This document shows positions 5,921-9,353 of a stretch of DNA of 64,000 nt, in pieces (positions within the stretch are counted from its first letter, which is position 1; each line of letters starts with the position of its first letter). The notes below the pieces were generated by a model that was given only the letters and a program-made list of their open reading frames with translations, searched no databases and was not told the origin of the DNA. The stretch is from an uncultured Treponema sp. GTDB taxonomy: Bacteria; Spirochaetota; Spirochaetia; Treponematales; Treponemataceae. The DNA lies in the NCBI GenBank assembly GCA_949299755.1, contig CASGBA010000001.1, positions 186,001 through 250,000 of the forward strand, written 5' to 3'. The translations under genes and the position numbers were made by a program.

Positions 5921-6601
5921 TTAACAGCGGTGAAGCCATCCTATAACCCGGCCGCCAACGGTAAAGGAAAGAAGGCTGTCTCCGGAAAGCACTACAGGCT
6001 CATACCGGGGGTTTTCGCTTATAATCCGGACACAGAAATTGGAAGGCTCAAACTGTATTCTTTTTACAAGAAGGCGGTTTTCTATGGACACCACAAAAAT
6101 TCCGTCACCTTCCTTTTCTTTGGGCGAAAACAAAACCACATCACCGTCAAAAAGACCGATCCCGGTCATGGAATCTCCCCGGGTTGTGACTGCCCGTATA
6201 TTTTCCGGCCGTCGGGGCGCAATCATAAATTCCGGCACAGCGATTTCCGTTGAAGAAGCATTGTCCTCCACTTCAATTCCGTACCCCGCCGCCACCTGCT
6301 GATCCAATAATTTTATTAAGGCGGTGGAATCTTCTCCGCCATCAGAAAAATTCCTGGAAGCCGGATTCCCCGTAAGAAGCCAGTTTATATCCACACCGTA
6401 AATCTTTGCCAACCGTACAAGAACATCCCGGGAAGGATCCCTTTTTCCCAGCTCAATGTCACCTGAAACCACGGGATGGATTCCCAGACTTTCAGCAAAA
6501 TCCTTTTTTGAAAGTCCCGCATGGGATCTGACAAAGGCATATCGGTCTGCAACCGTTAAACCGGAAAGGGGAAAAGCTTCAGTTTTTTGGAAAAAGGCCA
6601 T
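5921..6601 (-). CDS. XRE-family/S24 self-cleaving repressor (LexA/CI-like)
   Basis: A 226-residue repressor with two domains. Residues 15-80 are an XRE helix-turn-helix (LSKKDFAESLGIHPVVSGDI ... VDINWLLTGN). Residues 100-226 are an S24 autoprotease domain with an Ala105-Gly106 cleavage site (QQVAAGYG), Ser144 (RGDSM) and Lys180 (LLVKR) at the usual spacing, so the catalytic dyad is intact. Such proteins bind operators as dimers and inactivate themselves on RecA filaments. It is divergent from the UmuD'-like gene and separated by 117 bases holding two matched operators, so it most likely represses that operon and probably itself. Start ATG 6601 follows GAGGAAAAC. Not classical LexA: the N-domain is XRE, not winged helix. 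Confidence 0.88.
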   Translation of the reverse strand: MAFFQKTEAFPLSGLTVADRYAFVRSHAGLSKKDFAESLGIHPVVSGDIELGKRDPSRDVLVRLAKIYGVDINWLLTGNPASRNFSDGGEDSTALIKLLDQQVAAGYGIEVEDNASSTEIAVPEFMIAPRRPENIRAVTTRGDSMTGIGLFDGDVVLFSPKEKEGDGIFVVSIENRLLVKRIQFEPSNFCVRIISENPRYEPVVLSGDSLLSFTVGGRVIGWLHRC

Positions 6602-6628
6602 GTTTTCCTCATCATTTAAATAAATTAT

Positions 6629-6667
6629 TTGCTTGACAAATAAGCATATTGCTTATAGAATAAGCAT
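6629..6667. promoter_or_regulatory. Twin operators TTGCTT-N7-AAGCAT, 20 bp apart
   Basis: Copy 1 is TTGCTT (6629-6634), N7, AAGCAT (6642-6647). Copy 2 is TTGCTT (6649-6654), N7, AAGCAT (6662-6667). Both have the same dyad geometry and are spaced exactly 20 bases, two helical turns, so two dimers would sit on one DNA face. Copy 1 covers the -35 and copy 2 covers the -10 of the promoter at 6633-6661. These are the obvious targets of the XRE/S24 repressor encoded next door (inference). Confidence 0.75.
6633..6661 (+). promoter_or_regulatory. Promoter of the UmuD'-like/mini-UmuC operon
   Basis: -35 TTGACA (6633-6638), 17-base spacer and -10 TAGAAT (6656-6661): a near-consensus sigma70-type promoter. 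Each hexamer lies inside one of the twin operators, the arrangement expected of a tightly repressed, strong inducible promoter. Transcription would begin near 6668 and give a 50-base leader with a GGAG ribosome site. Confidence 0.75.
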
Positions 6668-6718
6668 ATCATCAATTTTTCACTTTGTCCATGATTTTAT
6701 ACTTATTTTGGAGAAAAG

Positions 6719-7039
6719 ATGAAAGAAAATTTAACGGCAGGAATTGATTTAAACGAAATCATTGTATCCAATCCGGCTTCCACTTATTTTATGAGAATAA
6801 AGGGAAACAGTCTGCGGCACAGGCATATTCTGGAGGATGATATGCTTGCCGTGGACAGATCCAGGCCTCCGCTGCCGGGATGTCTTACGGTTTTTTGCAG
6901 GAACGGGGAGTTTTTATGCAGGGAGCTCGTCAGGAATGGAGAAGGTCTAGCCCTTAAAGACAGTTCTGACTACATAATTGCTGTGGATGACAGCATAGAA
7001 ATTTTCGGCGTGGTAACAGGAGTTGTAAGAAAAATATGA
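6719..7039 (+). CDS. UmuD'-like S24-fold protein, no protease arm, catalytic Lys lost
   Basis: A 106-residue protein that aligns with E. coli UmuD from about residue 33 onward (IDLNEIIVSNPASTYFMRIKG; end IEIFGVVTGVV). It therefore lacks the N-terminal arm with the Cys-Gly cleavage site and corresponds to already processed UmuD'. The nucleophile Ser is kept (Ser31, KGNSL). The catalytic Lys of UmuD is Arg68 here (EFLCREL against EFTVKKL), exactly 37 residues after the Ser as in UmuD. It should not be able to cleave itself and has nothing to cleave. Phage P1 HumD is a known UmuD'-like precedent. ATG with GGAGAAAAG site; its stop overlaps the next ATG (ATGA). Confidence 0.82.
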   Translation: MKENLTAGIDLNEIIVSNPASTYFMRIKGNSLRHRHILEDDMLAVDRSRPPLPGCLTVFCRNGEFLCRELVRNGEGLALKDSSDYIIAVDDSIEIFGVVTGVVRKI

Positions 7040-7632
7040 CATTATGTTTTTATTCAGAAGATTTTTTTTCAAAATGTGAAACTCTTTTCCGTCCGGACTT
7101 GGCGGACAAGGCTGTCCTGGTGATTTCAAAAACAAAATCTCTCCTGTCCCGGAAGAAAATAGTCTCTGCGAATAAAATAGCAAAAAACGCCGGGTTTTTG
7201 CCCGGAAATTTTCTCCACAGGAATTCAATATTACCGGAGGGAACCTCCATTTTTTATGAAAATCCCGGCCTCTATGAGGATATAGGCAAAAGAATGATAT
7301 GTGTTTGCCGGCGTTTTTCAGACAAGGTTTGTTTTGATGATAAAGGAAACATAACCATTTCTTTTTCAAATTCCGGAACAAGGGATTTTCTAAGTCTTTC
7401 TTCCAGAATTGCCAAATGTATAAAAAAAGAAACCGGAATAGATGTCAATGTGGAAATTACCGACAAAGACGGGGAAACCGGAAAAAAAGACAGACATAAC
7501 TTTAATCTGAAAGTTAATTCCATGGTTGAAAGATATGGAAGAACATTCGTAAAAATGCGTAAAGACATATTCCCCGTAAAATATTCCCCGTTGTATACAA
7601 CAGACACCTCGGCCCTGCCGGTTGTAAGATAA
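7036..7632 (+). CDS. Miniature UmuC-like protein (palm fragment plus UmuC C-terminal tail)
   Basis: A 198-residue intact reading frame, coupled to the UmuD'-like gene by ATGA. Residues 1-145 follow the UmuC palm/fingers: FSKCETLFRPDLADKAVLVIS matches the SCETVFRPDL region, GLYEDIGKRM matches ELYADMSNRV, and SSRIAKCIKKETGIDVNVEI matches the palm helix and strand. Residues 160-198 match the UmuC C-terminal tail (KDIFPVKYSPLYTTDTSALP against KREMLSPRYTTRRSDLL). The thumb and little-finger domains, about 220 residues, are missing. The first catalytic Asp (position 6 in UmuC) is Tyr6, and the SIDEAF motif is not recognisable (only D101-D102 nearby). It should not be a polymerase. It is either a deletion derivative under decay or a repurposed UmuD' partner; the open frame and coupling favour the latter. 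Confidence 0.75.
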   Translation: MTLCFYSEDFFSKCETLFRPDLADKAVLVISKTKSLLSRKKIVSANKIAKNAGFLPGNFLHRNSILPEGTSIFYENPGLYEDIGKRMICVCRRFSDKVCFDDKGNITISFSNSGTRDFLSLSSRIAKCIKKETGIDVNVEITDKDGETGKKDRHNFNLKVNSMVERYGRTFVKMRKDIFPVKYSPLYTTDTSALPVVR

Positions 7633-7676: not shown

Positions 7677-9353
7677 ATGGACACAATTTCAAATTCCTTA
7701 CCGGAATACGATCCGTATACCTGTTTTTTGACACCGGAAAACGAAAGCCCCCTTTTCCCCGACGAGGCCGATGCACCGGAAAACAACTGTTGCCGGGATC
7801 CTGTAGCTGATGTGGCGAAAAAGTTTTTTTCCCTTCCCTACCTGTATCCATGGCAACGGATTGTCATAGCAAATATCCTAGATGCCGCGTATTCTGCCAC
7901 CACTGAAGAATATGCGAAAAACCACTTTCCGGAATCCGGCGGTGAGCAAAAGGTTATTTTCCGGGACGAAGACGGATTTCTGCGGGGCAGGCAAATAGTC
8001 ATCCTGCCCACAGGAGCGGGAAAATCAATGTGCTTTCAGATTCCTGCAATGATGCTTCCCGGTCCCACACTGGTAATTTATCCTCTACTGGCACTGATGC
8101 ATGACCAGGTGGCTAAACTCAGGGCTGTTGGAATAGAGCCTGTGTTATTCAAAGGAGGACAAACAGATGAAGAAAGAAACAGTCAGTTTCAAAGGCTTGA
8201 AAACAAAGACGCATCCATAATCATTGCAAATCCGGAAATACTGGCTGACAAATATATATTGGGAAAAATCAAGGAAAGCGGTTTATCCCACATAGCCATA
8301 GACGAAGCTCACTGCGTATCGGAATGGGGTGACACATTCAGGCCGGCATATTTGAATCTGGGAAACATAATCGGAGAACTTTCCCCACAGGTTGTTACAG
8401 CTTTTACAGCCACAGCATCACCTGATGTGTTGGAACGTATCACAGAGGTTCTTTTTAACGGGAAGACACGCCTGATAAGAGGAAGCTCAGACAGAGAAAA
8501 TATTATTTACAGCGTAAAACGTTGTACTGCCAAAGATCCCGCCCTAATAAAGCTAATAGCGGAATCGGAACGACCTGCCGTAATATTCTGTGGAACCCGT
8601 GGAAGAACCCAAAGATTGGCAGCTCTTTTACAGGAATACTTTCAGGATGATAATATAAAATACTACCATGCGGGTTTATTACGGGAAGAAAAAATAAAAA
8701 CGGAAAACTGGTTCAGCCAAGCCGCCTCAGGAATCCTTTGCTCGACCTGTGCCTGGGGAATGGGGGTAGACATAAAAAATATAAGGACAGTTATACATTA
8801 TGACAGTCCACCGACAGTGGAGGCATATATACAAGAAGCAGGGCGCGGAGGAAGAGACGGTTTACAGTCAAAAGCCATATTACTTTGGAATGACGATGAC
8901 AGAAAAAAAATAGAAACCCTTCAGGAACCGGCAAAAAGCCGGGCATCGGTTTTAACAACTTATGCTGAAAGTGGCCGGTGCCGGCGGTCAGTACTTTTGG
9001 AAGCGCTGGGGGAATGTAAATCAGGAGAACCTTCCGCCTTGGAAGGCGAAAAGGAAAAAGCCTGCGCAGGATGTGATGTGTGCAATGGGAATGCTGTCTT
9101 TTTCCCCAAGGAAGAAGCCCTGGCTGAAATTTTTGTGAGGAGAAACAAAAGGCGGTATACTATCCTGGAATCCTCCCAAATCCTATGTGAAAAAGCCAAT
9201 TTGTATACCAGAAATCATTACGGGAAGAACATTTGGCAAACAAAAGATTTTATGGATATTTTAAAAAAACTGCAGAAAGAAAATAAAATCATATTCTCGT
9301 CTTTTGTTTGGAAAGGAAAACTGACAGTTCCCTCCATTAAGCGTCATAGCTGA
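7677..9353 (+). CDS. RecQ-family ATP-dependent DNA helicase
   Basis: A 558-residue superfamily 2 helicase. Motif I is LPTGAGKSMCFQ, motif II DEAH (AIDEAHCVSEWG), motif III TAFTATAS and motif VI EAGRGGRDG. The RecQ aromatic-rich loop is seen in HCVSEWGDTFRPAY. A C-terminal zinc site is suggested by GRCRRSVLLEALGEC ... CAGCDVCNG, followed by a short winged-helix-like tail. No HRDC domain. A long N-terminal extension (about 100 residues) precedes motif I. Not certain to be RecQ itself rather than a RecQ-like paralogue. It starts 44 bases after the mini-UmuC stop, with AGGAATT before the ATG, and may share that operon's damage-inducible promoter. Confidence 0.85.
   Translation: MDTISNSLPEYDPYTCFLTPENESPLFPDEADAPENNCCRDPVADVAKKFFSLPYLYPWQRIVIANILDAAYSATTEEYAKNHFPESGGEQKVIFRDEDGFLRGRQIVILPTGAGKSMCFQIPAMMLPGPTLVIYPLLALMHDQVAKLRAVGIEPVLFKGGQTDEERNSQFQRLENKDASIIIANPEILADKYILGKIKESGLSHIAIDEAHCVSEWGDTFRPAYLNLGNIIGELSPQVVTAFTATASPDVLERITEVLFNGKTRLIRGSSDRENIIYSVKRCTAKDPALIKLIAESERPAVIFCGTRGRTQRLAALLQEYFQDDNIKYYHAGLLREEKIKTENWFSQAASGILCSTCAWGMGVDIKNIRTVIHYDSPPTVEAYIQEAGRGGRDGLQSKAILLWNDDDRKKIETLQEPAKSRASVLTTYAESGRCRRSVLLEALGECKSGEPSALEGEKEKACAGCDVCNGNAVFFPKEEALAEIFVRRNKRRYTILESSQILCEKANLYTRNHYGKNIWQTKDFMDILKKLQKENKIIFSSFVWKGKLTVPSIKRHS

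Follow-up and report, generated by a model that had tools for sequence, protein, structure and literature searches.

The locus and its regulator

How is a near-consensus promoter in front of an error-prone repair cassette controlled in a bacterium that has no LexA? The window (the whole 64-kb stretch of DNA that was analysed) comes from a member of the Treponema family with a genome of 2.35 Mb (G000), and Brucepastera parasyntrophica is the nearest cultured relative with the same locus; its strain RmG11 also shares the operator described below. A literature search on LexA or UmuD in Treponema found nothing directly relevant. An earlier note on this DNA had proposed two operators, one on each promoter hexamer. 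The genes concerned are:

5921–6601, minus strand: rep, a 226-aa XRE helix-turn-helix plus S24 repressor (Pfam HTH_19/HTH_3 and Peptidase_S24)
6719–7039, plus strand: umuD'-like gene, 106 aa, with its start close to the UmuD cleavage point and Arg instead of the catalytic Lys
7036–7632, plus strand: umuC stub of 198 aa, comprising an N-terminal IMS part and a short C-terminal tail
7677–9353, plus strand: recQ-like helicase gene, 558 aa, an older neighbour now downstream of the cassette

Like canonical LexA, rep possesses an S24 domain (PF00717, E 1.6e-17) with an Ala-Gly cleavage site and a Ser-Lys dyad, and A105-G106, S144 and K180 are invariant in 9 repressors. Its N-terminus is of the HTH_19/HTH_3 type, and the fusion of an XRE-type HTH to S24 is a feature of phage-type (CI/HdiR-like) SOS repressors. 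The predicted structure matched the folds of the lambda/186 repressor and LexA, with the XRE HTH close to the domains of P22 c2, 434, DdrO and ImmR. Full-length superpositions were poor, as might be expected should the relative position of the two domains vary. A search of viral contigs found no relative of the repressor.

The lineage had been described as one usually thought to lack LexA, which does not hold for the family, since the LexA DNA-binding domain scored above the cut-off in 216 of 274 genomes; it does hold for the subclade of the window. No protein of G000 matched the LexA winged-HTH domain (PF01726), and its S24 proteins are just rep and the UmuD'-like protein, in agreement with the earlier note. 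Among the 14 genomes with a strong rep orthologue (E < 1e-60), a LexA-domain match was found in G063 alone, and a marginal one (E 7.9e-4). The LexA pattern follows phylogeny: LexA was replaced or lost in a single subclade and not excluded repeatedly.

A pair of repeats and the palindrome between them

The regulatory features between rep and the umuD'-like gene are:

6629–6647, plus strand: site 1, TTGCTT-N7-AAGCAT; the left arm is peculiar to this species and the right one is identical with the left arm of O1
6633–6638, plus strand: umuD promoter -35, TTGACA, from the promoter scan; TTGAC in 12/12 loci
6640–6656, no strand: candidate operator O1, ATAAGCA-TAT-TGCTTAT, a perfect 7-N3-7 inverted repeat of 17 bp
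6649–6667, plus strand: site 2, TTGCTT-N7-AAGCAT; left arm identical with the right arm of O1, right arm overlapping the rep -10
6656–6661, plus strand: umuD promoter -10, TAGAAT, from the promoter scan; the T, the A and the last T do not vary among the 12 loci
6663–6668, minus strand: predicted rep promoter -10, TATGCT, with extended TG (TGATATGCT, 6663–6671), from the promoter scan
6686–6691, minus strand: predicted rep promoter -35, TGGACA; 17 bp from the -10 in 11/12 loci

The two copies of TTGCTT-N7-AAGCAT reported earlier are exact and lie 20 bp apart, with TTGACA inside the first and TAGAAT inside the second. The sigma-70 promoter formed by these hexamers reads toward umuD and matches 11 of 12 consensus bases with a 17-bp spacer, as expected of a strong promoter. 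A genome scan for the core, which had been suggested as a route to the rest of a regulon, yielded little: the strict form TGCTT-N7-AAGCA occurs at four places in the 2.35-Mb genome, namely the locus pair and two single sites in coding sequence, and a reversed-pattern control gave 1 match. With four such cores genome-wide against one in the control, the pair 20 bp apart is not a product of chance. The same bases also form the perfect inverted repeat at 6640–6656, which had gone unnamed; it occupies the whole spacer between the two umuD promoter hexamers and covers the predicted rep start site, which falls at its right edge. Predicted transcript 5' ends are near 6656 for rep (minus strand) and near 6668 for umuD (plus strand).

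A search for rep orthologues covered 274 genomes of the family plus named genome contigs, and 12 loci from three genera (window included) were compared; these are not fully independent because the genera are related. All 12 keep the divergent rep/umuD-umuC layout and the same intergenic design, in which the invariant block is TTGAC-NN-RTAAGCA-NNN-TGCTTAT-A...T. Within it RTAAGCA-N3-TGCTTAT is the invariant unit: 13 of the 14 arm positions are identical in the 12 species, the remaining (first) one being A or G, and the flanks of the arms have decayed to about 0.5 bit. When the operator was slid along the alignment, it scored 13.75/14 at offset 0 against a background of 3.4 +/- 0.7.

This comparison bears directly on the proposal of two repressor dimers, each on an N7 operator of its own, the first covering the -35 and the second the -10. 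In the window genome both copies match exactly, and site 2 scores 9–11/12 in nine relatives. However, the upstream arm of site 1 is missing in 11 of 11 orthologous loci, the TTGCTT over the -35 being confined to the window genome among the 12 compared, and the 8–10/12 matches that site 1 attains in the others consist of the -35 and of the arm that also belongs to O1. Absence of the motif at orthologous operons was what the earlier note itself had named as refuting, and site 1 does not pass that test. The downstream arm of site 2, moreover, falls on the divergent rep promoter's -10, which explains it better than an operator half does. The spacing also speaks for the palindrome: its inner dyad is AAGC-N5-GCTT, the same dyad-N5-dyad spacing as in CTAA-N5-TTAG and TTAC-N5-GTAA, sites of phage-type SOS repressors proven by gel shift (PMC8565304), and N7 does not fit it. 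We therefore consider two N7 operators improbable. The repeat pair is real and its parse into two N7 sites is wrong; a single operator, lying within two divergent promoters that overlap, should take the place of 'two operators, one per hexamer'.

Two facing promoters

The second promoter was called by consensus on the minus strand (6691–6663) as TGGACA-N17-TATGCT preceded by TG. Its position is unchanged in 10 of 12 loci; in G066 its -35 and -10 have moved together by 1, and in G004, alone of the 12, the consensus scan did not find it. Its mean score is 10.5, versus 7.6 +/- 0.3 in shuffles, and the extended -10 (TGaTATGCT) is conserved in 11 of 12 loci. Since this putative promoter is kept in 11 of 12 loci and scores above shuffles, the conserved AAGCAT/TAGCAT is most simply read as the rep -10.

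The same observation weakens a further reading, in which two or three dimers bind in the N3 register, strongly at 6648, weakly at 6668 and perhaps at 6628, cooperating as lambda CI does at OR1/OR2. In this reading the centres are 20 bp apart, on the same helix face; the second-best match in the alignment falls exactly at offset +20 (7.7/14, z 6), weak as it is, leaving room for a second dimer, and the -20 and +20 positions each score 9/14 in the window genome. Yet the +20 signal is mostly AGCATATCA, already explained by the extended -10 of rep, the other +20 arm is poorly conserved with palindromy near background, and the -20 match is limited to the window genus. We regard additional dimers as rather unlikely, though as a reading to be kept in mind beside that of a single dimer on O1.

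The operator follows the recognition helix

The recognition helix IHPVV[SA]GDIELGKR is nearly identical, with small changes only, in the 12 repressors whose loci bear the operator, and homologues with another recognition helix are without O1. Several more distant S24 repressors have other 17-bp 7-N3-7 palindromes directly after TTGAC: ATCGGCA-AAA-TGCCGAT (p 0.001), ATCACCA-AAA-TGGTGAT (p 0.0015) and AATTACA-TTA-TGTAATT (p 0.0065). A clear palindrome of this kind behind TTGAC was absent in 14 of the 20 more distant repressors tested. That the repeat co-varies with the recognition helix, and that different palindromes stand at the same place beside other repressors, argues against its serving another purpose, such as an RNA hairpin or a site for another regulator. 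A perfect inverted repeat could in principle do so; however, the predicted umuD transcript begins downstream of it, and the rep transcript would include it, if at all, at its extreme 5' end, and we consider such a role very improbable.

Two observations on the distant homologues may be recorded here. L079 is a short contig whose repressor is 31% identical; on its reverse strand, a TTGACA/TATACT promoter that faces phage-like genes has the perfect palindrome ATCGGCA-AAA-TGCCGAT (825–841 of the reverse complement) in its spacer. In G048 and G037, homologous XRE-S24 repressors (L043, L044, L045, L046 and L047) adjoin genes for a restriction-type helicase/nuclease, an AAA ATPase, a Vsr-like protein and a DNA methyltransferase, as if these repressors also served defence loci.

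One site per genome

The exact operator has one match each in G000, G002, G004, G019 and G023, which have a close rep orthologue, and none in G001, G034 and G048, which do not. In G000, a pattern search allowing up to 2 mismatches gave 10 sites, and the reversed control gave 12. Of the nine sites besides O1, eight lie inside open frames; upstream of recA no site was found. The wider regulon anticipated earlier thus did not materialise, and the canonical LexA arrangement, a multi-gene regulon comprising recA and the regulator itself, is not seen here. Since the genome has no further exact operator, rep would act as a single-locus switch.

The ninth, ATAAGGTTTATGCTTAT (G000:C3:59035–59051, L126), is an operator-like two-mismatch site that is intergenic and lies upstream of a tsaE-like gene.

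A cassette with a truncated polymerase

In this group the UmuD-like protein starts where the UmuD cleavage product does, i.e. it is encoded as UmuD'. Its Ser-Lys dyad is missing, with Arg for the catalytic Lys in every aligned member. Because the UmuD' form is already encoded and the dyad is missing, a post-translational activation step would not be expected.

UmuC is full length in other genera. In the window genus it is a 198-aa stub that keeps the N-terminal part and a C-terminal SPLYTTDTSALPVVR tail, having lost the catalytic acids and about 200 residues, so that the catalytic carboxylates and the thumb and little-finger parts of active UmuD'2C (pol V) are not found in it. The stub recurs in G002 with 70% identity. 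Between G000 and G002, dN/dS is 0.07 for Rep, 0.09 for UmuD' and 0.19 for the UmuC stub, neighbouring genes giving 0.05–0.10. These ratios indicate purifying selection on all three, with the stub the least constrained of the set; the stub is therefore neither an assembly error nor a fresh pseudogene.

The rep-umuD'-umuC cassette (5921–7632) stands between an M3 peptidase gene and recQ, which adjoin without it in G001 (of the window genus) and in G004. So either it entered this position by insertion in the line of G000 and G002, or G001 has lost it. A umu-recQ operon as the ancestral unit was considered and rejected, because the order M3 peptidase-recQ-hisH-hisF, which is the ancestral one, occurs without rep-umuDC in G001 and G004.

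In the window genus, the switch and its strong promoter may have stayed under selection while the polymerase decayed to a dead UmuC stub beside a pre-cut, non-catalytic UmuD', the cassette being repurposed to a damage response other than a polymerase. We offer this tentatively, at rather less than even odds; such a response could involve binding to RecA or to the sliding clamp, or damage-dependent control of recQ.

Proposed mechanism

We propose, with a probability of about 80%, that one 17-bp operator (ATAAGCATATTGCTTAT, 6640–6656) bound by one repressor dimer silences both face-to-face promoters and that RecA-stimulated self-cleavage releases them. Of the two overlapping promoters, that of umuD'-umuC(stub)-recQ would be strong, and that of rep, with an extended -10, weaker. 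In the undamaged cell a dimer of the 226-aa repressor would sit on O1, in the umuD promoter spacer and over the rep start site, keeping the cassette silent and rep synthesis self-limited. Upon DNA damage, RecA filaments would stimulate S24 self-cleavage at Ala105-Gly106, the dimer would fall off and both promoters would fire. Repressor binding, autorepression, RecA-dependent cleavage and damage induction are thus what we infer from the operator, the promoters and the intact cleavage site and dyad. The central idea of the earlier note, a switch built into the promoter, is borne out, and control of this promoter by the 226-residue repressor appears, judging from the sequence, the most likely arrangement.

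Comparison with known systems

The XRE HTH and S24 (CI) fold of rep are common to lambda CI, P22 c2 and 434. Lambda has 17-bp two-fold operators inside divergent promoters, as O1 is. Unlike these phages, the window locus is without lytic genes, Cro or multiple strong operators. Acinetobacter UmuDAb/DdrR resembles rep in combining an S24 repressor, a LexA-less genus, error-prone polymerase genes and a shared promoter region, but it has a larger, different operator with a GTnAC core, and UmuDAb is a UmuD homologue that needs DdrR. SetR of SXT/R391 ICEs is, like rep, a CI-like repressor over a umuDC homologue, rumAB (PMC9578287); it works together with LexA and CroS and belongs to a conjugative element, and none of these was seen at the window locus.

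Closer is HdiR of Lactococcus and Streptococcus (including the S. uberis mutagenic cassette), a phage-type HTH plus S24 repressor of a LexA-less group which, according to PMC8565304, controls its own gene, a umuC-type cassette and hardly anything more. Rep shares the repressor type, the LexA-less setting and a palindromic predicted operator in its own and its target promoter, so that self and a umuC-type cassette would be the targets here too; phylum and operator sequence differ, umuD' is divergent from rep in the window, and UmuC is gutted in the genus. Non-canonical LexA of Bacteroidetes likewise has a CI-like N-terminus with S24 and dyad-N5-dyad sites (PMC8565304), and shares with rep the regulator/polymerase pair, the palindrome in the regulator promoter and a motif that diverges between paralogues. 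It runs a multi-gene SOS regulon, whereas rep has one site per genome and recA stands outside.

The analysis also illustrates how, when only a single genome is considered, promoter elements of two facing genes can pass for additional operator half-sites. It provides a precise, testable predicted operator for a LexA-less takeover of error-prone repair genes by a phage-type repressor, apparently a further case after Streptococcaceae and Bacteroidetes, within a family that mostly keeps LexA.
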